DNA of 16,957 bases from Cytauxzoon felis (lineage: Eukaryota > Apicomplexa > Aconoidasida > Piroplasmida > Theileriidae), in the NCBI GenBank assembly GCA_020283715.1, contig JAIQCW010000065.1:1-16957 (forward strand). The letters are read 5' to 3'. Positions 1-16,957 of the stretch are shown in pieces (positions within the stretch are counted from its first letter, which is position 1; each line of letters opens with the position of its first letter). Made by a program: the position numbers and the translations under genes. Under the pieces are notes generated by a model. That model was not told the DNA's origin. It saw nothing but the letters and a program-made list of their open reading frames with translations, and did not search any database.

Positions 1-159
1 TTTTTAAAATGTTTAATTTTGTGCCAAAAGTAGGCAATTCTAATCGAAATTTGTATAATTTGTCACTTGTAACTTAATGTTAATATTTTAATAACTCTAT
101 ATTCATATTTATCATATACATACATAAAGATCTCCATCTGAAATCCAATGCAATGCTCT

Positions 160-253
160 TCATCCTGCCGTCAGCTCTTCTATTTACTTCCCCTTCCAGC
201 TCCCGTAGATCGCTTACAGGTATTCTACTTGAGGTCTCCACTTGAGGTCAATC
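160..253 (-). repeat. Dispersed repeat, module B (copy 1, left part)
   Basis: Read on the minus strand this encodes the repeat's second conserved block, approximately TSSRIPVSDLRELEGE, followed by VNRRA. It matches the block inside the methionyl-tRNA synthetase insert and in the UTP25 introns. The end at 242-253 is the short AGGTC/GACCT-type terminal motif seen at other copies. It is separated from its partner module A by about 340 bp of AT-rich DNA, unlike the compact copies. Confidence 0.8.
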
Positions 254-596
254 CATTAATAATATATAAATTAATTGAATTAAATGCAATAATTATCTTC
301 TCTCAATCATTTATAACTCACGTATAATATTATATTAATTTTATGAAATGTAATTATTTATATAAATCTATTACTATCGTATAATGTAGTATACTTTAAT
401 TCATGTTACTAGTAATATAGTATATATATTATAATAATTATTTATATTAATACTTATATATCATCATATATCTATACTTCATCCTTCAATTGTATTATTA
501 TACATGTATATATTATAGTAGAAGAGAAATCATCAATAGACTGTTAAGAAGTAGTGTGAATGGTGTTTATTACCCCCGAAAACCCCCTATTACCCC

Positions 597-721
597 ATCG
601 CCACGATCTCCGGGAGTGGCTATACTCTTTAGAGATAGGTAATTGGAAGAGGCCTCCACGGCGAGTGGAACAAAGTTGGATTGGACCTCAAGTGTAGAGC
701 TGTCTGCAAGACGAAGGAAAG
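597..721 (-). repeat. Dispersed repeat, module A with inverted module B end (copy 1, right part)
   Basis: The minus strand of 597-673 encodes the first conserved block, SSNYLSLKSIATPGDRG. Immediately beyond it, 675-721 on the plus strand carries the ending of module B (GAGCTGTCTGCAAGACGAAG) next to a GGATTGGACCTC motif. This mixed orientation shows that the family is mosaic. Confidence 0.8.
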
Positions 722-780
722 GTGGAGATGTAATGATCATTGATTGATTATATTACGACATTTTGTATATTTATATGATT

Positions 781-2625
781 TCATTCAACGTATGGTTGTA
801 GTATCATTAATTCGTATTTGAACTCTTCTTCATCGATCATGATCCAATTACCATCATCTTGTTTAATAAAATAAATGTTATTACTGTTTTGTTGATTGAT
901 TTGTATAAATATATGTAATAGTTTGGGTGTATCATGATTATAATATATGATAACATTTGAACATTTGGGTTGATTTATAATATCGATATCACCACTACGC
1001 CATATAATTTGATTATGATCTTTAATTGAGCTAAGGAAAGTATCTTCTTTAATATAATATGTGCATGCATTATGATTATTAACAGGTGAATCATTAATAA
1101 TAACAAGATGATTAAAATATTTAAAATTAATATCTAATATGAATTCATTTTCGACATTAATTAATATATTTTTGAACATATATTCAGGTATACGTACCCA
1201 CATATCTATTATCCATTTATAATAGATTGATATATTATTTCTATTACGTCCCATTATATGTAATAATAATTTATTATTATATCTAATATATAATATACAA
1301 CCTAAAAATAAATAATCTGTAGTATTATTATTTTTCCATAAACATTGTATACCATCTATAACATTAATAATAGTAACATGTGGTAATGGTTCAAATATAT
1401 ATTTAATAGTATCAACATGATTAATATATCTTTGTACATTAATATTATTATCAACATTAGATATATCAAATATATATTCATTTTTTATTTTAATTAATGT
1501 ATTATTAAAATTATGTTCATCAACTTCAACCCAAGTATAATTAGCATATTTCCATAAATAAATTGTACTAACAACACCATAATGTATTATTCTTAATATA
1601 ACTAATCTTGGTTTACCATCTTTATAATAACATCTAACATCTAATATATATTCCATATTATTTCTTGATATCCATACTACATTATTATGATCTATTATTT
1701 CTGTTGTATATATATCATTCTTACTTCTAATTATTAATATAGTCATTACTTCATCTATATCATTCATTACATGATAATTATCATTCTGTAATACATTATT
1801 TATATATGTTATATCTAATGATGATTCATTACGTATTATATTCTCTAATGCTTCAAATTCATCATTTAAACATTGATTCCATGAATGATCTAATTCTCTT
1901 TTAAAATAACAAACTTCTAATCTATCATCATATAATACATCTATTTTTAATAATTTCATAACATCTCTACGTTTAATAGCCCTTGCTCTTATTAATCTAC
2001 CATCTACTTCTGGTAAAAGCTCCCATATAGGTGTACCATTACATTCTATCCATACTACTTTACTATCCTCACTCAAGGTTATACTTATTATTTTATTACC
2101 AAATTCTGTATTATATACTACATTATCATCATCATTCAAATCCATTAAATCCAATAATATATGAGTTTCTATACCATCCATAAATGGATCATCTACATGA
2201 TACCATGGTGTAATATCATCCACTCTACGTAATTTTACATTCTCTACATTACCATTCATATATACACGCATTGTTAATGTCATATGACCACAATTATCTT
2301 TACAATAATTTACATTTTTTACAAAACTACCACCCATCGTACGCCATGCTATATCACCTAATTCATCCCTTATCATTATTATCTTACATGGACCAGTAGC
2401 TATATATGATTTACAAACTGTATCCATTAGATCAAATGGATATATCAATATACCAGCTACCTTAACAGATAAGCCTAAAGATAATGGTATATCTGTTGAA
2501 TATATCACATGCTTTGCCAATATGACAAAAATAATTATAGTAAACACATTTATATTATATACATTAAATATTACATTCATCATAATAACAATATTATTAC
2601 AATTTTGGATATAATGCAAATCCAA
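781..2625 (-). CDS. Secreted protein with about five FAINT-like (DUF529) repeats
   Basis: A single-exon ORF of 614 aa. An N-terminal hydrophobic stretch (about residues 26-37, core NVFTIIIFVIL) looks like a signal peptide. Met15 (2583) or Met16 (2580) would place it closer to the start, so translation may begin there. The rest divides into about five units (residues ~50-162, 163-265, 270-378, 382-490, 494-608). Each has a buried Trp strand (AWR, VWIE, VWIS, CLWK, IWRS), a hydrophobic strand and a second Trp motif such as YTWVEVDE or GNWIMIDEEEF. That pattern is typical of FAINT domains, which are greatly expanded in Theileria and usually found in secreted or host-exposed proteins. The exact domain call is from memory of the family. 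Repeats 4 and 5 are Asn-rich. No transmembrane or GPI signal is visible at the C-terminus, so the product is probably secreted. Substrate or host target is unknown. Confidence 0.72.
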   Translation of the reverse strand: MDLHYIQNCNNIVIMMNVIFNVYNINVFTIIIFVILAKHVIYSTDIPLSLGLSVKVAGILIYPFDLMDTVCKSYIATGPCKIIMIRDELGDIAWRTMGGSFVKNVNYCKDNCGHMTLTMRVYMNGNVENVKLRRVDDITPWYHVDDPFMDGIETHILLDLMDLNDDDNVVYNTEFGNKIISITLSEDSKVVWIECNGTPIWELLPEVDGRLIRARAIKRRDVMKLLKIDVLYDDRLEVCYFKRELDHSWNQCLNDEFEALENIIRNESSLDITYINNVLQNDNYHVMNDIDEVMTILIIRSKNDIYTTEIIDHNNVVWISRNNMEYILDVRCYYKDGKPRLVILRIIHYGVVSTIYLWKYANYTWVEVDEHNFNNTLIKIKNEYIFDISNVDNNINVQRYINHVDTIKYIFEPLPHVTIINVIDGIQCLWKNNNTTDYLFLGCILYIRYNNKLLLHIMGRNRNNISIYYKWIIDMWVRIPEYMFKNILINVENEFILDINFKYFNHLVIINDSPVNNHNACTYYIKEDTFLSSIKDHNQIIWRSGDIDIINQPKCSNVIIYYNHDTPKLLHIFIQINQQNSNNIYFIKQDDGNWIMIDEEEFKYELMILQPYVE

Positions 2626-2832
2626 ATTACACTACTGTACACATGGGGCATGAATTTAAACTAATGCAACAAGGTGTAATAAGACAAATAAAATTATCAA
2701 AATAAACTATGGATCATTATAAACAAATTGTTTATTATACATTTTTTTAATCGAAATATATTTTTTAAAATATATTTTACGATACATAATCCAACTAGAT
2801 CTAATAACATATATAGATTAATATTAATAGAT
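2626..2832. other. Short spacer between two co-directional genes
   Basis: About 200 bp of AT-rich DNA between the 3' end of the methionyl-tRNA synthetase gene and the start of the FAINT-like gene, both on the minus strand. It presumably holds the terminator of the former and the promoter of the latter. I see no gene or repeat copy in it. Confidence 0.5.
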
Positions 2833-4854
2833 TTATGTCATTGTCTTTTGATGTATTGGTTTAAATATATACTTGTATTCCTTCAACATATCAAATTTGA
2901 TCCCATTATATTTTATAACTTCCCCTTTGATAATCGGATTTATTGTAGTAATAATCGATTCACATAATCTAGGCATTATCGGTGATGCAACTATTGATAT
3001 GTAAAATATTGCCATTGTAGCAGTCCATAATAATCCATTAAATTTATCATCAGCGTCCAATTCCCATATTCTATTTTCTGTCAAAAATTTATTTAATTCC
3101 ATCGACATCTCATTAAGTATTTTTATATATCTATCAATTCTACAATTGTTTACTATAGAATCCAATAAATCAATTTTTCCATTAAATTCATTTATCATCT
3201 CATCTATATAATTAGGGGGTTCTAACATGAGGATACCATGGATATCTAATATACCCGTTATTCTATAACATGTATTCGCATAGTTATTAATTATCAAATT
3301 GTGAATATTTTTAATCATATCATTAGTATACATAAAATCATTAGCAAAATATCCAAGAGACATTAAAGTAAAACGATAAACATCAGATGTATAATCTAAT
3401 GGTAATGCAGGAATAATATTACCGAATGATTTAGACATCTTATTACCATCACTATTCAATATCCAACCATGAACTATCAATCGTATTCTAGGCTCAATAC
3501 CCAATGACATCAATAATGATGGCCATAATAAACCATGAAAATTTAATATATCCTTACCTATCACATTATACGTCATCGATGGTATATCCATATCGCTATA
3601 CAATTCAATTGATATTTCTTTTCCATTAGGAGTTCCATCTGAGGTTACATTGCTGCCGTCTCCACCTGAGGTCGTCCTGCAGACAGCTTCTTTATTTAGT
3701 TGTCCCTCCGCTTCCCTGAGATCAGCTGCGGGTAATCCACTTGAGGTTACATCCAACACATCCTTAGCACCATCTTCCATCATTCCCATGATGGATGATC
3801 CATCACTACCTTCACCACGATCTCCGGGAGTGGCATTACCGTTTACGGGGAGGTAATTGGAAGAGGCCTCCACGGCGAGTGGAACATAAGTTGTAACCTC
3901 AGGTGGAACGCCGTATAGACTTGTAGTAGATAGAGGTTCTCTAGTTGTTGTCTCTGGAGAACTATTCATATTGATCATATGATATAGGTAGCATAACAAT
4001 GCATCGAACCATACGTAAATGTACTGATTCTCTTCGACTTTGATGCCTAATTTACAATTGGATCTCGTAATGGCAACATCGAATAAATCATCATTCAAGA
4101 TGTTTAACAGTTCATTCTTTTTATTATTTGGCAATATAACATCATTTTTAGTATAAAAATCGATAAGTTTATCACGCCAAGTACTTAATTTAAAGAAATA
4201 TGCGGGTTCTGCTATGGGTATCACATCGAAACCATTGGGTGATTTCCCATTAATCAATTGTGATTCAGGATAATATAAATCCTCCTTTGGTGAGAAGAAC
4301 CCTTTATGTATTCCTTTGTATATGTGACCAGTACTTAATAATCTATTGAATATCCCAAGTACAAACTCCTTATATTTATGCTCACTTGTATGAACATTGA
4401 TGTCATTATCGATGTTATATGCTTTAAACATATCAATAAATCTTCTTCTAACATTAATTATATGATCATAGACATTAATACCTAGAGCTTTTGATGTACT
4501 CTCAATCTTGGTTCCATGCTCATCTGTACCAACCAATGTGTAGACTCTATGACCATTTAAATTATAATACCTCTTCAATACATCCGATAAAACTACAGTA
4601 TAAGCATGACCCAAATGTGGATCACCATTTAAATAATACAAAGGTGATGTTATCAAAATTTTACCGTCGTCATTGACTCTTATAAAATCATCATCAATCT
4701 CAACTGCATTATGCCTATGTCTAATAGACTTTATTAAAGAATTTAAGCCTAAAGTAGAATTTACTATACGAAATGAGATTATAAATTGTAGTTGCGATAA
4801 AATTATAAAAAATATCAAATTTATATACAAAATGTGATAAATATATAGAATCAT
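2833..4854 (-). CDS. Methionyl-tRNA synthetase, organellar (apicoplast) type, with in-frame repeat insert
   Basis: A single-exon ORF of 673 aa. It is a class I aminoacyl-tRNA synthetase that charges tRNA-Met. The HIGH motif is HLGH at residues 80-83 within LYYLNGDPHLGHAYT. The core motif VWFDAL is at 281-286, and KMSKS is at 472-476 within KMSKSFGN. The anticodon-binding helical domain follows to the end. The first ~28 residues are very hydrophobic (IYHILYINLIFFIIL) and are followed by a basic, hydroxylated stretch up to about residue 60. This fits a bipartite apicoplast leader (signal peptide plus transit peptide). The connective region has YYPESQL and lacks zinc-binding Cys pairs, as in shorter bacterial/organellar enzymes. 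Residues ~297-414 are foreign to the family: they sit between WFDALLCYLYHM and NVIGKDILNFHG, where homologues have only a short link, and they are encoded by the dispersed repeat. The gene is divergent from UTP25, with about 90 bp between start codons, which suggests a shared promoter. Confidence 0.9.
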   Translation of the reverse strand: MILYIYHILYINLIFFIILSQLQFIISFRIVNSTLGLNSLIKSIRHRHNAVEIDDDFIRVNDDGKILITSPLYYLNGDPHLGHAYTVVLSDVLKRYYNLNGHRVYTLVGTDEHGTKIESTSKALGINVYDHIINVRRRFIDMFKAYNIDNDINVHTSEHKYKEFVLGIFNRLLSTGHIYKGIHKGFFSPKEDLYYPESQLINGKSPNGFDVIPIAEPAYFFKLSTWRDKLIDFYTKNDVILPNNKKNELLNILNDDLFDVAITRSNCKLGIKVEENQYIYVWFDALLCYLYHMINMNSSPETTTREPLSTTSLYGVPPEVTTYVPLAVEASSNYLPVNGNATPGDRGEGSDGSSIMGMMEDGAKDVLDVTSSGLPAADLREAEGQLNKEAVCRTTSGGDGSNVTSDGTPNGKEISIELYSDMDIPSMTYNVIGKDILNFHGLLWPSLLMSLGIEPRIRLIVHGWILNSDGNKMSKSFGNIIPALPLDYTSDVYRFTLMSLGYFANDFMYTNDMIKNIHNLIINNYANTCYRITGILDIHGILMLEPPNYIDEMINEFNGKIDLLDSIVNNCRIDRYIKILNEMSMELNKFLTENRIWELDADDKFNGLLWTATMAIFYISIVASPIMPRLCESIITTINPIIKGEVIKYNGIKFDMLKEYKYIFKPIHQKTMT
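3635..3906 (-). repeat. Dispersed repeat inserted in frame in the methionyl-tRNA synthetase (copy 2)
   Basis: The copy is bounded by near-perfect 15-bp inverted repeats at 3635-3649 and 3892-3906 (CCATCTGAGGTTACA against TGTAACCTCAGGTGG, one mismatch after reversal). On the minus strand it encodes module A (ASSNYLPVNGNATPGDRG) and module B (VTSSGLPAADLREAEGQLN), joined by a unique acidic, Met- and Gly-containing linker. The frame is open throughout and continuous with the enzyme on both sides. The flanks 3615-3634 and 3907-3966 also look foreign to the enzyme. The codons here use C and G in third position far more than the rest of the gene. Confidence 0.88.
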
Positions 4855-4943
4855 CCATTTATTATTTACTGATTATACGGTTTACTTAGGAATCATTGTG
4901 TAAAGTCATTTTTTATTTAATTATTTTTATTTCTACAATAATA

Positions 4944-7900
4944 ATGTCAAATAAAAATGACAAGGAATCAAATTTAGACAAATTATTAAAATTAATAGAT
5001 GAACGCGAATATAAAAAAAGAAGATTAAAGTCAGATTCCAATGTTAATGACATAAATGATGATGATTTAGAAGATTTACTCTATACAAACTCAGAAGATG
5101 AGGATGATGAAGGGGAAGATGAAGAATCTATAGATGGATTTATCTGTAATGATAACTACAGTACATTCAATGATGATTATATGAAATATACAGAGTCAAA
5201 TAAGGTTATTAAGGAAAATATAACATTTGAACATCCATTATTTAATAAATTTACTATCGAAAATGTTACACCTATACTATCAAACATAGTAGGCAAGAAT
5301 GCAGTTCCAGATCCGATATCAAGCCCAGAAGAGTATAAAATAACGAAGCAATTAATTAAAAGGATACAAACATTGTGTAAAAATGGCAAATTATCAGAGG
5401 TTTCTAAGGATCTGAGATATTTATTTAATTGTATTAATAGTTATGTCGATGTATATTATGTCAATAATCGTACCAGTATATTAAATAACATCAGATTAAT
5501 ATACACCATCCATATCGCAAATCATATAATTAAAACACACTTGATGAAAAAAGATAACATTGAAGGTGAAGAACCTGCAAGAACTGATGGATTTACCAGA
5601 CCGAAAGTACTAGTCATATGCGGGTTAAGATGTATAGCCAGAGAAGTCATTAATCACCTATTATCACTCATACCCGCCGCCAAACATGTAGGTTATCAAT
5701 GATAATATCGAATTATATGCTTGTAATTGAAGGTTACTATCAGCCTGAAGTTATAACTCTTCTTCCACTTCCATCGAGGTCCAATCCACCTATGTTCCAC
5801 TCGCCGTGGAGGCCTTCTCTATTTAGTTGTCCCTCCGCTTCCCTGAGATCAGCTGCGGGTAGTCCACTTGAGGTTACATCCAGATTAGCTTCAACATCGT
5901 CACGATCTCCGGGAGTGGCATTACCGTTTACGGGGAGGTAATTGGAAGAGCTGACGGCAAGACCTCGAGTGGGACGCCGAGTGGAAGAAGAGTTGGATTG
6001 GACCTCGATGGAAGTGGAAGAGAAGTAGATGAGTATTAAATTGTATATATAATATAAAATAGGATGAGAATTTGGATCGTTTTGAGGTTGATTTTTCATT
6101 ATTGGAGGAGGATTTGGAGGAGCAGAATAATTCATTTATAAAGACTCGTAAATCGATGGATTATGTAAATACATTTAGTGGTAATCAAGACGATGCTTTT
6201 AAAATTGGTATACGTTATCAATCGGGATTATTACATTTGTATAGTTCATTTTATTCTAGTGATATTATTATTGCATCACCATTAGGGTTAAAATCTACGC
6301 TTGGTACTATTGTTTGTTGATAATTATTTATATTTAATATCAACTTTTAGAAAGATAAAGATTCAGATTATGATTTCCTATCATCCATTGAAGTTGTTAT
6401 ATGTGATCGTATCGATATTATCAAATTCCAAAATTGGAAAATATTCTCTGACCTTTATCAGGTAATTTTACACGATATAGAAAATCTTTCATTCACCACC
6501 ACCTGAGGTCAATCTTTTCCATTGCATGGAGCTTCTCTATTTACTTCCCCCTCAAACTCCCGTAGATCGTTCTCGGGTATTCCACTTGAAGTCCAATCCT
6601 CTACACCTCCATCATCGCCACGATCTCCGGGAGTGGCTCTACTCTTTAGAGATAGGTAATTGGAAGAGCTCTCTGCAGGAGAACGCGAGGTTGTAACCTC
6701 AGGTGGAAGTGGAAGAATAGGTGGATTGGACCTCAGATTTACTTCAATCTGTATATAGTTGATCATTTGTAGTGCTTTTTCATTTATATTGATATATAAT
6801 TTATAGTTTATAAATTTGCCATTATTGAAGTGGCGTGATGGAGATATAAATAAGATACGTATGAGTGTGATAGATGGTCAGATAATGGAATACAGGCAGA
6901 ATATAATGTTATCATGTAGTAATAATATCATTATTAATTCATTATTTAAAAAGAGTAAAAATAAAAGAGGATTTATTCGACTTGTTAGACCATATACTAA
7001 CGATTATATATTACTCGGGTCGAAATGTAAAATACAACAACTATTTGTCAAAGTACCATCAAATAATATCAAAGATAGCACACAAGTAAGTACATGCTTC
7101 GATACACATACAATGAGGTTCAATCCTGCCGTCAGCTCTTCCATTTACTTCCCCCTTCGCTTCCCTGAGATCAGCTACGGGTTCTCCACCTGAGGTCATA
7201 TTCACTAGTTCCACTACTTCATTTTCACCCCCAAAATTTGAAGGAAATCTTGAATTTCTGGGGAAACTACTGAAGATAACTAAATGACTATTGAATGTAT
7301 CTCTGATCTCAATACTTCATTGAAAAGGAATTTGATGATTCTATTGAGTTTACTCAACATCACTTCATTCCAATATATATTGACTGAGATATCCTTCAAA
7401 CATGAATTCCGTCACTTTATCCTTATCTCGTCGAGATCAGAAATTATACCTGTAAGCGATCTACGGGAGCTGGAAGGGGAACTAAATAGAAGAGCTGTCT
7501 GCAAGACGAAGGATGATAATGATTGGACCTCAAGTGGAGAAAATAATATAATATCCAATTTCTATAGGATGTATTGACGTATTTTATAAAGAATGTATTG
7601 AATATGATTCAGGATAAGATTGGTGTATTGGTTGTTTTGGGTGACTATACACATTATTTGCGGTGAGTATTGTAAAATTGTTAATAAAAAATTTTTATAG
7701 GATATATAAAGAGTTAAAAATATCGAACATTAATTATTTGACATGTCATGAATCTAATAATAATAGACAGATTTCATATGCTCGTCAGCAATTTCATAGT
7801 CGTATGTTTATAATGTGTAGCGATTAAAATAATTTGTATATAGAGAATGTACCTATACTTATAACAACATATCGTTATTTATTTTTTAAACGTAATATAA

Positions 7901-8112
7901 TAAAGGGTACAAGATTAATATTATTATTACAACCACCAGAGTATATACCATTATATAAAGATTACTTGAAGATGTTATTGAAAGTAGAAGATGGTACATT
8001 AGTTTGTTATTATACTAGATATGATGCTATATTACTTGAACCATTAGTTGGTAATAATAGATTAGTTAAATTATTAGATGCTAGTGATACAAAAATAACA
8101 CAATTTCATTAA
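4944..8112 (+). CDS. UTP25: UTP25 (DEF/DUF1253), U3 snoRNP-associated small-subunit processome protein, seven exons
   Basis: Exons: 4944-5687, 6063-6311, 6351-6461, 6807-7085, 7568-7662, 7701-7801 and 7844-8112. All joins keep phase and use GT...AG, giving about 615 aa. An upstream in-frame ATG at 4896 would add 16 hydrophobic residues, which do not suit a nucleolar protein, so I chose 4944. UTP25 is a degenerate DEAD-box-like protein needed for 18S rRNA processing. The N-terminus is charged and acidic (DEDDEGEDEESIDG). The diagnostic blocks follow in family order: RPKVLVICGLRC, NTFSGNQDDAFKIGI, FYSSDIIIASPLGL, YDFLSSIEVVICDRIDI, IIKFQNW, WRDGDINKIRM, IGVLVVLGDYTHYLR, QQFHSQNVPILITTYRY and the C-terminal region ending near TQFH. 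The DEAD tetrad is replaced by DRID. An apparent in-frame TAA at 7825 lies inside the 42-nt intron 6, so the gene is intact. Introns 1, 3 and 4 are 375, 345 and 482 nt and all contain the dispersed repeat. The others are 38-42 nt. Confidence 0.88.
5761..6021 (-). repeat. Dispersed repeat in UTP25 intron 1, with 27-bp terminal inverted repeats (copy 3)
   Basis: Perfect 27-bp terminal inverted repeats lie at 5761-5787 and 5995-6021 (core GGATTGGACCTCGATGGAAG). Between them, on the minus strand, are module A (SSSNYLPVNGNATPGDR) and module B (VTSSGLPAADLREAEGQLN), the same subtype as in the methionyl-tRNA synthetase. The host intron is 5688-6062 (GTAGGT...AAAATAG). The copy is antisense to UTP25 and its own frame is open along its length. 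I could not identify a target-site duplication. Confidence 0.9.
6499..6734 (-). repeat. Dispersed repeat in UTP25 intron 3 (copy 4)
   Basis: The minus strand carries module A (SSSNYLSLKSRATPGDRG) and module B (WTSSGIPENDLREFEGE). An 11-bp inverted repeat, CCACCTGAGGT at 6499-6509 and its complement at 6696-6706, flanks the modules. A further GGATTGGACCTC motif is at 6723-6734. The host intron is 6462-6806 (GTAATT...TTATAG), so the copy makes up most of it. It is antisense to UTP25. Confidence 0.88.
7114..7199 (-). repeat. Dispersed repeat, module B, in UTP25 intron 4 (copy 5)
   Basis: A module B segment without module A. It begins 28 bp after the intron donor (GTAAGT at 7086). It is antisense to UTP25 and faces copy 6 in the same intron as an imperfect inverted pair. 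Read on the minus strand it contains VADLREAKGE-type residues and ends with the CCACCTGAGGT motif. Confidence 0.82.
7447..7539 (+). repeat. Dispersed repeat, module B, sense orientation, in UTP25 intron 4 (copy 6)
   Basis: The plus strand encodes VSDLRELEGELNRRAVCKTK followed by a WTSSG motif. It lies near the 3' end of intron 4 (7086-7567). About 245 bp of AT-rich, repeat-free DNA separates it from copy 5, which points the other way. Confidence 0.85.
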
Positions 8113-8221
8113 ATAAATTTAATTTATAAATGGGGGATTTAATTTAATTATTTTTTTTATAAAATTTTATATTATATTAATTAAGATTCTATAAATTTAT
8201 ATTATTTAAATATTAAATTAA

Positions 8222-9562
8222 ATGTTAGGATCATCTACTGAATATCGCAACAATCCAGCATATTATTATTGTCATGTATGTAATGCTAAAAGAACACAAT
8301 CTCAAGTATCATTAAGTGATACAGGTGATATATTATGTTTATCATGTCAAAGTTTTGGTTTTGTAGAAAAGGTATTCATTATTAATATAATAATTTTCAT
8401 TATTTATAGGTTACATATGAAGATAATGATCAACCATCAACATTTTATTCAAATTTAGATACAACAACTACCAGACATAATGTAGATCCATTCACATCTG
8501 ATCCTTTTGCATCCGTATTTGGTGTACCTTTAAATGTTTTCATACAAGATGCACTTCGTGGTACTTTATCTAGTCATTTTACAAGTAATGTACCATTTAA
8601 TACACAAAATACATCATCAAATACATTAAATATCGGATTCAATAATAATGAATTCCATAATATGTTCCAAAGAACATTATTTGGACCATTCACCAATATA
8701 CCCAGACGTAATAATGGAAGGCTACAATTTTTTCAAGGAGATTTCTCCAGAATCATCAATTCATTCATCAGTAATCCTTTCGATGAACATGCCATGAACC
8801 AAATTTTACAATATGTCATGGATAATGATCCAAATAGATACGGACCACCACCCGCTGCAAAACACGTCATCGATACACTCGAAGAAGATACCATCGATGA
8901 CGATCTTGCCAGTATGTTTATCACATTCACATTATATTGAAGTTCATCCTATTCCACTCGAGATTCAATCCAACTTATCTTCGTCTTGCAGACAGCTCTT
9001 CTAATTACTTCCCCCTCCGCTTCCCTGAGATCAGCTACGGGTACCACTTGAGGTCCAATTACTACACCTCCGCCACGATCTCTGGGAGTGGCTATACTCT
9101 TTAGAGATAGATAATTGGAAGAGGCTCCACGCCTAGTGGAAAGAAGAGGTGGATTGGACCTCGAGTGGAGACGAGTGGGATCATTGGTTGTAACTTCAGG
9201 TGGAGTGGATTGGACCTCGGTGGAGAATATTACATGTTTGTGTATTCTACATCATGAATATTATAGAATCATTGGAGAGTTGTGCGATATGTACGGAGGA
9301 TTTCAAGGTTGGTGAGCGTATACATTGGATAGAGCGTGACAAGGCGTTATGTGGTCATGCATTTCATGTAGATTGTATAATACCATGGTTGAAGCAGCAT
9401 AATACATGTCCGGTATGTAGGTATGAATTACCTACGGACGACGAATTGTATAATAAGCAGAGGGAGTATTTGAGATCGAGATTAACGGAGGAGGTTCAGC
9501 GTAATGTGGGTAGTACACAATCATCTATGGGAGATTTGAATTCACCTGGTAATAATCAATAA
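8222..9562 (+). CDS. RING-H2 E3 ubiquitin ligase, RNF126/RNF115-like, three exons
   Basis: Exons 8222-8371, 8410-8911 and 9267-9562 give 315 aa. Intron 1 is 38 nt (GTATTC...TTATAG). Intron 2 is 355 nt (GTATGT...TTATAG) and holds a repeat copy. The N-terminal zinc ribbon has CxxC pairs at C17/C20 and C39/C42, as in the RNF126/115 family, where it binds ubiquitinated clients or chaperone adaptors. The middle is a low-complexity Phe/Asn/Thr region. A conserved YGPPPAAKHVIDTL motif precedes the C-terminal RING-H2 domain, whose ligands are C223, C226, C246, H248, H251, C254, C265 and C268 (C3H2C3), with IPWLKQHNTCPVCR. The exon 2-3 join is supported because the GPPP...IDTL block must be followed by the RING, and phases 1 and 2 fit. 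The product probably transfers ubiquitin from an E2 in the cytosol. It lies 109 bp downstream of UTP25 in the same orientation. Confidence 0.9.
8955..9227 (-). repeat. Dispersed repeat in intron 2 of the RING ligase gene (copy 7)
   Basis: A 17-bp inverted repeat (15 of 17 matching) lies at 8955-8971 and 9151-9167. Between them the minus strand keeps one open frame through module A (SSNYLSLKSIATPRDRGG) and module B (VADLREAEGE, then RRAVCKTK). Extra terminal motifs (TAACTTCAGGTGG, GGATTGGACCTCGGTGGAG) follow up to 9227. The host intron is 8912-9266 and the copy is antisense to the gene. Confidence 0.88.
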
Positions 9563-9637
9563 ATAATTAAATATATTATTTATTATATTATAAATTAATA
9601 TAGTTTAAATTGAAATAATAAATGTAATTTAAAATAG

Positions 9638-9708
9638 GGCTGCTCCGGGAATCGAACCCGGGACCTCTCGCACCCAAAGCGAGAATCATACCACTAGACC
9701 AAGCAGCC
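9638..9708 (-). tRNA. tRNA-Pro (anticodon UGG)
   Basis: 71 nt on the minus strand. Acceptor stem GGCTGCT/AGCAGCC, anticodon stem CTCGC/GCGAG with loop TTTGGGT (anticodon UGG), T arm CCCGGGTTCGATTCCCGG with a canonical B box. No intron. The transcript runs into TATTTT just downstream, a Pol III stop signal. CCA is not encoded. Confidence 0.95.
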
Positions 9709-9799
9709 TCTATAAAGGTGCCAAATTTATATATTATATAGACGGATTATCAATAAACAGATGGTAGCGAATATAAATTAATATAATAATAATATATTA

Positions 9800-10629
9800 T
9801 CATGATAATTTTGTATGTTCATACGACTTTGCCAAATTGCGCCATGCCCATACAAAGAATTCCGGGTTTCGTTTAATAATACGACTACCAGATTCCTCAC
9901 CAGTGACCTATTAGACATTAATATCTGTATATATAATCACACTTACTATAACACATTCATCATTTATCAAATTCTCAATCAAACTCGAGTACAATAGATT
10001 CAAATTTTTCAAACTCTTTTCATTCTATAATTAATATCATCAAATAGAAATAAAATATTAAAGGACTCGCAACTGAGTTACCATCCTTCCCAACTATTAC
10101 TACCTCTACATTCTACACCAACCTCTGTTCACACACCTGATGTCTTCCACTAGGCGTAGAGCCTCTCCACCTGAGGTCGTCTTGCAGACAGCTCCTTTAA
10201 TTATATATCTCTAAAGAGTATAGCCACTCCCAGAGATCGTGGCGATGATAGAGGTTAAAATGATGTAACCTCGAGTGAAACCCGTAGCTGATCTCGGGGA
10301 AGCGGAGGGGGAAGTAAATAGAGGAGCTGTCTGCAAGACAAATGAACGGTGGAATGGAAGAAAGGGTGTAATAAATTGAACCTTTGGTACCAACGTTTCA
10401 ATGACTGCTCCACTTGTCTAAACATACTTGTGGGAATAGTCTACTGAACTGGTCAATATACCTATGAATTAATAATGTGTAATGTACAAGCGTACCAATC
10501 TACGATAGCCTTTTCATTACAGGACTCTGTATCGCGCTTTTGCATTAAATATTTACCGACATTGTATGCAAAATGGACATACGCGTCATATTCTAGGGTT
10601 TTGTTGTTTTGTACCTCTAGATTACTCAT
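9800..10629 (-). CDS. Unrecognised small protein gene, four exons, 117 aa
   Basis: I do not recognise this product. Exons on the minus strand: 10629-10496, 10461-10428, 10024-9947 and 9907-9800. All joins keep phase with GT...AG introns of 34, 403 and 39 nt (GTACGC...CATAG, GTATGT...TTATAG, GTAAGT...TAATAG). The predicted soluble, helical-looking protein has no signal peptide, membrane segment or long Asn runs. It contains EYDAYVHFAYNVGKYLMQ, AIVDWYIDQFSRLFPQ and FFVWAWRNLAKSYEH. Such Trp- and Tyr-rich, ordered composition in short spliced frames is unlike the AT-rich noncoding DNA around it. Intron 2 contains repeat copy 8, matching the pattern in neighbouring genes. The gene lies between two tRNA-Pro genes. 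The weakest point is intron 1. An unspliced read-through of exon 1 would stop at 10462. Confidence 0.6.
10167..10352 (+). repeat. Dispersed repeat in intron 2 of the 9800-10629 gene (copy 8)
   Basis: Perfect 17-bp inverted repeats lie at 10179-10195 and 10323-10339 (GTCTTGCAGACAGCTCC and its complement). These are the ends of module B in opposite orientations. Between them the plus strand carries module A (SLKSIATPRDRG) and then module B (VADLGEAEGE). A frame change and stops separate the two, so this copy is not fully open. It is antisense to the minus-strand host gene. Confidence 0.85.
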
Positions 10630-10739
10630 TTAGACAAATTTTTTACATTAAATTAAATTAATCACAAAATGTGTAACAAATTTTATACTGTGTTAAAATA
10701 CATTTATTTTCAATTTTAATATACAATTTATACTAAATG

Positions 10740-10810
10740 GGCTGCTCCGGGAATCGAACCCGGGACCTCTCGCACCCGAAGCAAGAATCATCCCACTAGA
10801 CCAAGCAGCC
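10740..10810 (-). tRNA. tRNA-Pro (anticodon CGG)
   Basis: 71 nt on the minus strand and nearly identical to the UGG gene. Anticodon loop TTCGGGT gives CGG. The anticodon stem CTTGC/GCGAG contains one G-U pair, and the D arm has a G (GTGGGATG) where the others have T. The A and B box regions are intact. The first TTTT run on the RNA strand comes only some 45 nt downstream, so termination is less tight than for the other two. Confidence 0.93.
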
Positions 10811-11089: not shown

Positions 11090-11160
11090 GGTTGCTTGGT
11101 CTAGTGGTATGATTCTCGCTTAGGGTGCGAGAGGTCCCGGGTTCAATTCCCGGAGCAGCC
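11090..11160 (+). tRNA. tRNA-Pro (anticodon AGG)
   Basis: 71 nt on the plus strand. Loop TTAGGGT gives anticodon AGG (expected to be edited to IGG). The acceptor stem has one G-U pair (GGTTGCT/AGCAGCC) and the T loop has TTCAATT instead of TTCGATT. TTTT follows one base after the gene. It starts 280 bp from the CGG gene and is divergent from it. With the other two it completes the proline-decoding set. Confidence 0.95.
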
Positions 11161-11242
11161 CTTTTCTCCAGACGTGATTAAAATTTATTAAAAATTAAGA
11201 TATTGCTTTAGATAAAATTAATATTTAATTTATTATTTAATA

Positions 11243-15758: not shown

Positions 15759-16957
15759 ATGTGTGGACATCAAGATAGTTTACATGTATATCTAACTATA
15801 ATCATATTGTTAGGCAGATCAATATTATAAGTTGAGTATAGGTATAGAGGATACAGATGACTGTGATGGTCTACTATCTGATGTAATCTCCATGATTTCT
15901 CCTCTTGTTAAGGCTGAGGATTATAGATCTGTAACTCTTAAGACTCAGACATCTGATGACAAAACGAAGAAAAAAGATATTGAGGCGGAGTTGAAGGAAG
16001 TTAATGAGAAGAAGGCTCAGCTTAATAATGTAATTCAGGGTATTAATGGAAAGTCTAAGTGTGATGGGACTGCTGCTGATTCTGCAGAGACGTCAAATGG
16101 CGCTACTTGTGATAGTTGTTCTGAAACTCAAGCTGCTACTACTTCTGGTTGTGGTGGAAACATTGAAGCAGCATGTAGTAAATATATCAATGACAACGGA
16201 GCTACCACTGGTTGTACTGACTCTGCTCCTAATCAACGCAACTGTGGATGTGCAGCTTGTGAAAATGGTAAAGCAGGAGAATGTTGCTGTTTCTGTAAAG
16301 ATACTCATAATTCAAGTTATGATAATAATATTAAATCGTGTCTTATGAGTTTGGTTAAGAAATTGAACGCGGATGATATTAAATGTAAACATAGTAGTGG
16401 TGGTAGTAATGGTAAGGATTCGTTAATGTGTTATTTGTGTGTTTTAAAGTGCAGTATTTGTAAATTGAAGACTGCATGTACTGTTAACTCTGGTACTTCT
16501 AGTGATAATGGTAATGGATATAATTTTGATCAGACATTGAAGGAGTTGCCTAAGAATATTGAAGATGTGGTTGATAAGATATGTACCACTGCTCAGGAAT
16601 GTTGTAAGAATTGTATTAAAGATGGTAATTGTTCTGGAGATGGAACTTGCTCGTGCAAGGGCAACGGAAATTGCTGCAAGGTCAACGATCGCTATTCCAA
16701 CTTTACGAAATTTTTATTAGGGACGAATGATACTTGTTCTTCTACTGAAACTTCTAATAATAAATGTAAGACTATTGCGAAAACATTGACGGATTTGAAT
16801 AAGACGTTGAAAACTTTTGTTGAGGGGAATGGTGCGAGTGGTGAGAGTACTACTCAGTGTAAATGTACTAATAACGGAGGCTCTAATACCTGCGCTGGAA
16901 AATGCTGTTGTGGCTTAGAGAATTGTACTGAAAACGGGTGTACAGGTACAGAACCAG
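15759..16957 (+). CDS. Cysteine-rich protein of an expanded-family type, 3' end beyond the window
   Basis: Exon 2 is open from 15818 to the window edge. An in-frame TAG at 15811 shows that the reading frame cannot simply extend upstream. The best model is a 19-nt first exon (15759-15777, MCGHQD plus one base) joined across a 40-nt intron (GTTTAC...GGCAG) in phase, giving at least 386 aa. There is no signal peptide. After a charged coiled-coil-like segment (KKKDIEAELKEVNEKKAQLN) come many cysteine clusters, e.g. CGCAACENGKAGECCCFC, CYLCVLKCSICKLKTAC, CCKNC, CSCKGNGNCC, CKCTNN and KCCCGLENC, spaced by Ser/Thr/Gly/Asn-rich stretches. Codons are visibly richer in G and C than in the neighbouring membrane-protein gene. 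Cys-rich proteins without N-terminal signals recall variant erythrocyte surface antigens of Babesia, but I see no motif that proves kinship. Confidence 0.6.

Follow-up and report, generated by a model that had tools for sequence, protein, structure and literature searches.

A dispersed repeat of the piroplasmid Cytauxzoon felis, first noticed in the 16,957 nucleotides of contig JAIQCW010000065.1 (assembly GCA_020283715.1; this whole stretch is the window of the text below, and contig C36 of our numbering), is described here. It probably represents a nuclear family of GC-rich mosaic elements of about 200 bp, which carry small hairpins, are apparently selfish and spread by homology-directed copying. 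An earlier note on this DNA had described about eight copies of a family resembling miniature inverted-repeat transposable elements (MITEs). The position of copies inside genes, the translation of those lying in exons and a scale of thousands all go beyond it. A survey of 64 genomes of Apicomplexa, published in 2022, reports no transposable elements in C. felis (PMC9141347), and no published description of the family was found in the open-access literature searched. One repeat family, by estimate about 9% of the C. felis genome, adds peptides to housekeeping enzymes. The mode of its spread, copying and recombination and not transposition, would, if our reading is true, be readable from linkage statistics.

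Abundance, module order and reassortment

The assembly searched comprises 8,623,106 bases in 181 contigs. Pattern searches allowing at most 3 mismatches located two core sequences, B and A, 2,876 times (1,455 + 1,421 matches) and 2,676 times (1,326 + 1,350 matches) respectively, and the reversed control patterns of both gave 0 + 0 matches each over the same 8.6 Mb at the same threshold. The genome mean density of core B is 0.334 per kb, approximately one core per 3 kb. A closer study was made of a sample consisting of contigs C9 and C105, chosen for strong matches to the copy at window position 5761, together with the window (210,334 bp together). A module scan of this sample found 164 clusters with a median span of 212 bp, covering 32,429 bp (15.4%), which, allowing for the higher core density of the sample, scales to an estimated 3,800 or so clusters genome-wide. 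The elements have a GC content of 50% vs 30-34% for the contigs. No viral contig (0) holds the exact core B pattern, and the 1 prokaryote contig that does, a Gemmatimonadetes record, is likely a chance match.

Read in the coding-sense orientation, the copies share a single module order: p/q - X - b - B - p'/q' - A - e - X' - p'/q'. The outer repeat is either p (TCCACCTGAGGTCCAATCC) or q (TCCACTTGAGGTTACATCC). Any of five modules (k, l, m, c or d) may occupy slot X, and X' is its inverted counterpart. Both cores, B then A, are present in 96 of the 164 clusters and half copies are common. The outer p/q occurs at both ends in 35 of the 96 two-core clusters, where the left and right types may differ. 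To judge from sequence, A-e resembles a diverged and inverted version of b-B.

In folding, the X modules l, m, c and d outrank about 95% of shuffled sequences. A small hairpin 5′ of core B occurs as CTC/GAG, CCG/CGG and CCC/GGG, and its covariation was examined in 58 distinct sequences, drawn from alternate members of a set of 118 copies. Both sides had changed in 27 cells vs 6.4 in shuffled data (0/500), and this signal was gone when the partners were slid by one column. Where a column has no common variant, rare variants amount to only 0.9-1.4% per site. Outward growth of a palindrome was rejected, no excess of flank complementarity having been found beyond the ends of 217 copies. A second repeat, made of degenerate units of about 22 bp (AACCCGGAAGAACA / ACCCCTAAGAACA / ACCCGGAGGAAC; for example at C9:24643-24844 and C9:121690-122175), often lies in the linker between B and A. 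Its first form has 306 + 364 = 670 sites genome-wide at no more than 1 mismatch, and in exons it is translated as NVNPEEQ / PLRTGNLPGG.

The modules appear to be assembled freely. Left and right X modules are independent (chi-square p = 0.28, 86 copies). The lowest p values among 21 slot pairs were 0.014, 0.022 and 0.036, none of which passes Bonferroni correction, and the seven-slot index of association was 0.023 (p = 0.28) in 72 copies comprising 67 distinct genotypes, with a permuted mean of 65.9. Linkage disequilibrium (r2) was 0.34 at 1-3 bp, 0.11 at 9-20 bp and 0.012 at 21-57 bp (70 copies), reaching the 1/n baseline (0.014) within about 20 bp. In simulations, each a single draw, 10 or 50 clonal families were detectable by this index (p 0.01-0.04). 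A genome-wide comparison of the copy at 5761, in which 40 of 2,814 candidates were scored, gave a best other match of 87% over 194 bp, and a shorter match of 94% over 121 bp had the top identity among the long ones. The copies look like fresh combinations from a limited pool of parts. Local duplication was rejected as the main route, the likeness of core B being 0.834 within 1 kb (36 pairs) vs 0.831 between other contigs.

In the mechanism that we propose, homology-directed copying would both generate and overwrite copies, in tracts of roughly 10-20 bp, through either ectopic gene conversion or a switch of template at hairpins while DNA is replicated or repaired. No cut-and-paste by a transposase would take part. 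Insertions that break a reading frame would be lost by selection, and those in sense and in frame would remain. The spread by recombination or gene conversion that the earlier note had offered as its second option fits the data better than does transposition.

Copies within genes

The 164 clusters were assigned to location classes by scoring open reading frames (ORFs) and codons. Twenty two are exonic, 2 partly exonic and 5 at edges, with a further 63 between same-strand ORFs (53.8 kb of sequence), 38 in convergent gaps (31.8 kb) and 34 in divergent gaps (39.4 kb). Exonic copies lie in the sense orientation in 22/22 cases (p = 5e-7), and the copies between same-strand ORFs are 27 sense and 36 antisense. 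One common frame is free of stops in 21 of the 22 exonic copies. Being in sense as well, these copies appear to be translated as inserts in the host protein. Counts made without codon scoring, for ORFs of at least 600 nt, were as follows: core B is spanned in its SSNYLPVN frame by 20 and in the other five frames by 2 (113 copies), and core A in its ADLREAEG frame by 17 and in the other five by 6 (122 copies).

The 22 exonic copies are distributed over 16 ORFs, of which 13 were covered by the family scan (2 of the 13 without a family). The hosts include methionyl-tRNA synthetase (metRS), 1-deoxy-D-xylulose-5-phosphate (DXP) synthase (DXS), Saf4/Yju2, a CAF1B/HIR1 propeller, a kinesin, a CAF1-type ribonuclease (two ORFs), a gamma-tubulin complex protein, an MFS transporter, a FAINT protein and an E1 enzyme. 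Two exonic ORFs, L043:827-2422 and C9:27338-31258, have internal duplications and carry half elements twice.

Three host genes are detailed here. The metRS gene of the window (2833-4854, minus strand; identified by Pfam and PDB relatives) is an open frame of 673 amino acids containing a full copy in frame and in sense (3634-3934, minus strand). The module scan and ortholog comparison show that the greater part of an insert of about 100 residues, which is absent from 6/6 piroplasm orthologs compared, consists of this copy. A protein search with insert residues 308-402 gave 2 matches among 221 candidates, both of them the C. felis surface antigen cf76. In an AlphaFold model of metRS, built on a shallow 7-sequence alignment, the predicted local distance difference test score (pLDDT) is below 50 at residues 296-437, which include the insert. 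Most blocks there have means of 23-28, vs 70-88 for much of the preceding domain, and residues 457-491 and 501-509 are also low. The model weakly suggests that the insert may be unstructured. In DXS, the alignment with the plant enzyme jumps from residue 534 to 715 of the query and from 523 to 533 of the plant chain, which has only 9 residues across that gap. By its coordinates the element falls within the gap, at about residues 552-645.

The third host is cf76, a C. felis vaccine candidate antigen. Its 723-residue protein matches the assembly at 100% over the full length and contains two copies in the module scan. In the published description, a 2,172-bp cf76 ORF was amplified from cDNA and is described as a single exon (PMC3748084). 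Between two cf76 alleles, 61 alignment columns differ. The N-terminal copy region (175-275) accounts for 46 of them, the stretch just upstream (118-174) for 11 and that just downstream (276-305) for 4, with 0 in residues 1-117 or 306-723; the limits of these regions were drawn by eye. The variation between these two alleles is centred on one of the two copies. The same source mentions a 30-bp sequence that is tandem in 10/11 samples and single in the other (PMC3748084). The genome allele has the k'-q' module pair twice in the N-terminal copy region, at about 33 bp each, and we read this doubled pair as the published tandem repeat. The part of cf76 bearing the other copy is strongly seroreactive according to the same text (PMC3748084). 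Among the matches to cf76 listed, 81/95 lie in open frames of at least 300 residues, in a list that is biased toward coding copies. Since the same peptide recurs in many other open frames, antibodies to the element peptide may, to judge from sequence, cross-react.

A bolder version of our reading, which we put forward tentatively, is that the family might be panmictic. Dispersed copies would swap modules of 10-20 bp freely within one shared pool, and this transposase-free rewriting would edit proteins, cf76 included. The concentration of allele differences in the N-terminal copy region means that module exchange could diversify this antigen, and panmictic exchange, if true, could generate cf76 antigen diversity.

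Selection at the protein level was rejected as the cause of the conserved cores in non-exonic copies because variation there is similar at the three codon positions (core B 0.177/0.151/0.176, 96 copies; core A 0.243/0.239/0.237, 77 copies). Copies in long ORFs gave a mixed picture (core B 0.180/0.119/0.227, 20 copies; core A 0.231/0.230/0.182, 19 copies). In-frame stops occur in 9/96 non-exonic core B copies, where random mutation expects 19 (sd 3.8) and a column shuffle 9.7, and in 15/77 core A copies, where the expectations are 24 and 12.6. The core B count matches the column shuffle, and the stops add no further evidence of coding selection. When small predicted proteins were searched with the element ORF, 15 candidates were obtained, none of them a match at 0.01.

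Copies also lie in introns. Introners are small repeats at very many gene-internal positions with GT/AG at their inverted ends, and the inverted ends of the C. felis elements likewise hold GT and AG in a splice-like context on both strands, by eye. These ends prompted the idea that the elements bring their own splice sites (TGAG/GT ... CTCAG/G at the ends) and so create introns on insertion. It can scarcely be right and was rejected. In all five introns that were read, the GT and AG that join the exons are outside the element. The UTP25 intron 5688-6062 joins its exons as ...IPAAKH to DENLDRFEVDF, the UTP25 intron 6462-6806 as ...FSDLYQ to FINLPLLKW, and the intron 8912-9266 of a RING-H2 gene as ...DDDLA to KSLESCAICTEDF. 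The other two, on C9, belong to a DEAD-box helicase and a Cpn60-like gene, names read from the translations. Moreover, the donor and acceptor phases differ in 8/9 exonic copies with both candidate sites, and the cf76 cDNA, as published, retains its copies (PMC3748084). Only 2/65 non-exonic copies between same-strand ORFs abut ORFs on both sides (at most 60 bp), and these two are the helicase and Cpn60-like introns.

Alternative origins and comparable systems

MITEs are small, high in copy number, inverted at their termini and without transposase coding capacity, and the C. felis family appears similar in these respects. A non-autonomous DNA transposon moved in trans by an undetected or lost transposase would account for the inverted ends (TCCAC...GTGGA), the 27-bp perfect terminal repeat at 5761/5995, and the many copies of about 200 bp with unique flanks. 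However, such an origin is unlikely. Target-site duplications, for which the earlier note had proposed a search, were not found in the 80 copies that have both ends; every length examined (2, 3, 4, 5, 6 and 8) fell below the permutation 95% level. The presence of p/q at both ends in only 35 of the 96 two-core clusters, the unlinked left and right modules, the lack of subfamilies of linked variants seen in the index of association and the distance of the 5761 copy from its best scored relative also speak against it. No DDE_3, MULE or Y1_Tnp domain was found in the genome by searches limited to these families, whose controls worked; a PiggyBac profile gave 0 matches in a search whose own control gave none either. 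According to the 2022 survey the phylum has no class II elements; its MITE candidates were set aside there as probable false positives (PMC9141347). The earlier description as MITE-like holds for a compact, dispersed, inverted-repeat family of high copy number; it does not extend to a MITE in the strict sense, given the lack of target-site duplications and the unlinked ends.

Retroposition of a structured RNA, as in short interspersed nuclear elements (SINEs), was also considered. Template switching by reverse transcriptase could be expected to yield both the reassorted modules and the small hairpins. Nevertheless, this origin is highly unlikely, as there are neither target-site duplications nor, by eye and uncounted, A-rich tails, and the window holds no SINE in an Rfam scan, in which only three tRNAs pass the threshold. 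RVT_1 is found at one locus only, as two adjacent matches in a frame of 1,010 amino acids (C56:73693-74436), which could be telomerase.

A further alternative is that the elements serve the cell, as a regulatory, chromatin or replication element or as a peptide domain, and are kept by selection and not by mobility. The nearly invariant stretches of the cores, the covarying hairpin and the presence of the same cores throughout the genome favour such a role. It is nonetheless improbable, since the copies between same-strand ORFs show no orientation bias, no type of gap is strongly preferred and the codon-position signal is absent from non-exonic copies. Copies are also depleted in coding ORFs, which make up 82,086 of 210,334 bases (39%) but hold only 22/164 copies (13%).

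Several observations weigh against homology-directed copying of a selfish family as we propose it. Core density in the sample (123 matches, 0.585 per kb) is 1.8x the genome mean. No better folding than in shuffled sequences was seen for cores A and B alone or for p, q and module k. The hairpin covariation involves few module types, for which reason 2/5 measures do not stand out from shuffled data: the pairs showing a double change (3 vs 2.0, 65/500) and the pair types (6 vs 6.0). In the simulations, again single draws, detection becomes marginal at about 200 clonal families (p = 0.06). The lack of close siblings (of 134 top siblings over at least 150 bp, 0 reached 95% and 2 reached 90%), which favours the proposal, covers the sample only. 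An identical partner was found for 4/118 core B copies, of which two belong to a duplication inside one ORF. Linkage equilibrium could also arise partly from independent saturation at single variable sites. At X, p/q and A/a, however, the alternatives are modules of several bases, which point mutation could hardly turn into one another. The mobility of the family is deduced from its dispersal and from insert-free orthologs. Among the exonic copies, direct evidence for retention in mRNA exists for cf76 only. The 22nd, after the exon of the E1 enzyme, is in another frame at an ORF end and may be intronic, and the 2 partly exonic copies are antisense, over ORFs barely above the score cut-off.

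If homology-directed copying of a translated family is correct, C. felis would to our knowledge provide the first in-frame palindromic family in a eukaryotic nucleus that resembles the Rickettsia palindromic elements (RPEs). The latter are short inverted-repeat elements of about 150 bp in dozens of copies across unrelated genes, many in frame and translated, with the remainder of the host protein conserved (PMC10969869). The C. felis family shares the in-frame insertion into unrelated protein genes (22 copies, 16 ORFs). It differs in occupying a eukaryotic nucleus with thousands of copies, in extending to introns and intergenic DNA, in its longer span (median 212 bp) and in having alternative-module slots in linkage equilibrium. 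With an apicomplexan host, and without direct comparison to RPE sequences, the family is not counted among the RPEs.

The GC clusters of yeast mitochondria are similar in other ways, being GC-rich palindromic units of an AT-rich genome that merge and shuffle and whose stems are under constraint (PMC4478555). Unlike them, the C. felis elements are nuclear, longer, of a fixed multi-slot order and translated inside genes. The same text notes AG target-site nucleotides for the yeast clusters (PMC4478555), whereas no target duplication was found in C. felis. The family is also set apart from MITEs by its lack of target-site duplications, linked ends, subfamilies and the transposase families searched, and from introners by the external splice sites of five introns and the copies retained in cf76 cDNA. 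The REPIN/RAYT and BIME systems of bacteria are mosaics of small dispersed palindromes. The C. felis elements differ from these in their exonic copies, in being many times longer than a single REP and in that no Y1 transposase was found.

Copies and genes of the window

The repeated blocks of the window lie where the earlier note had placed them, as four repeat families (D1-D4) and as 8 BLAST clusters. All four of its inverted-repeat counts are exact: 27/27 (5761/5995), 17/17 (10179/10323), 15/17 (8955/9151) and 14/15 (3635/3892). The module scan gives 9 clusters because the repeat at 160-721 is two half copies with AT-rich DNA between them. The first (133-211, minus strand, as are the following unless stated; strands refer to the coding-sense orientation) comprises the A core, e, k' and p', and the second (599-721 with the BLAST clusters included, 599-712 in the module scan) comprises l, p, c, b and the B core.

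The UTP25 gene (4896-8112, plus strand), recognised from Pfam matches to UTP25_NTPase-like and Utp25_C in successive pieces, is interrupted by four copies. Two are full copies antisense to the gene: that at 5761-6021, with the 27-bp perfect terminal inverted repeat, lies in the intron 5688-6062, and that at 6499-6741 inside the intron 6462-6806. They are followed by a half copy of the A core side, apparently between UTP25 exons (7114-7203; module scan, Pfam), and by a half copy with a variant A core in the opposite orientation (7447-7539, plus strand; module scan). A weak Rfam match of the 5761 copy to an unrelated microRNA family was rejected, its score being 32.8 vs a gathering score of 230. 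A further full copy (8953-9227; module scan, Pfam) is antisense in the RING-H2 gene intron 8912-9266.

The last copy (10145-10352, plus strand; module scan) is full, with the modules d, l, B, q', A, e and l', and lies between tRNA-Pro genes. Its 17-bp pair at 10179/10323 is perfect as had been claimed; it is the subterminal module l/l' and not the element boundary. Cores A and B, p and q have 0 matches beyond 10,400, in agreement with the absence from 10.4 to 17 kb noted earlier; the gap has no meaning in itself because the genome-wide density is only about one core per 3 kb.

Three tRNA-Pro genes, with anticodons TGG, CGG and AGG, lie within about 1.5 kb (9637-9708, 10739-10810 and 11090-11161). 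An ORF of 614 amino acids at 781-2625 (minus strand) has a FAINT domain (Pfam DUF529). At the other end, a Cys-rich ORF without a Pfam match (15832-16956, plus strand) runs off the window, and by eye we take it to be similar to a Babesia VESA-type surface protein.

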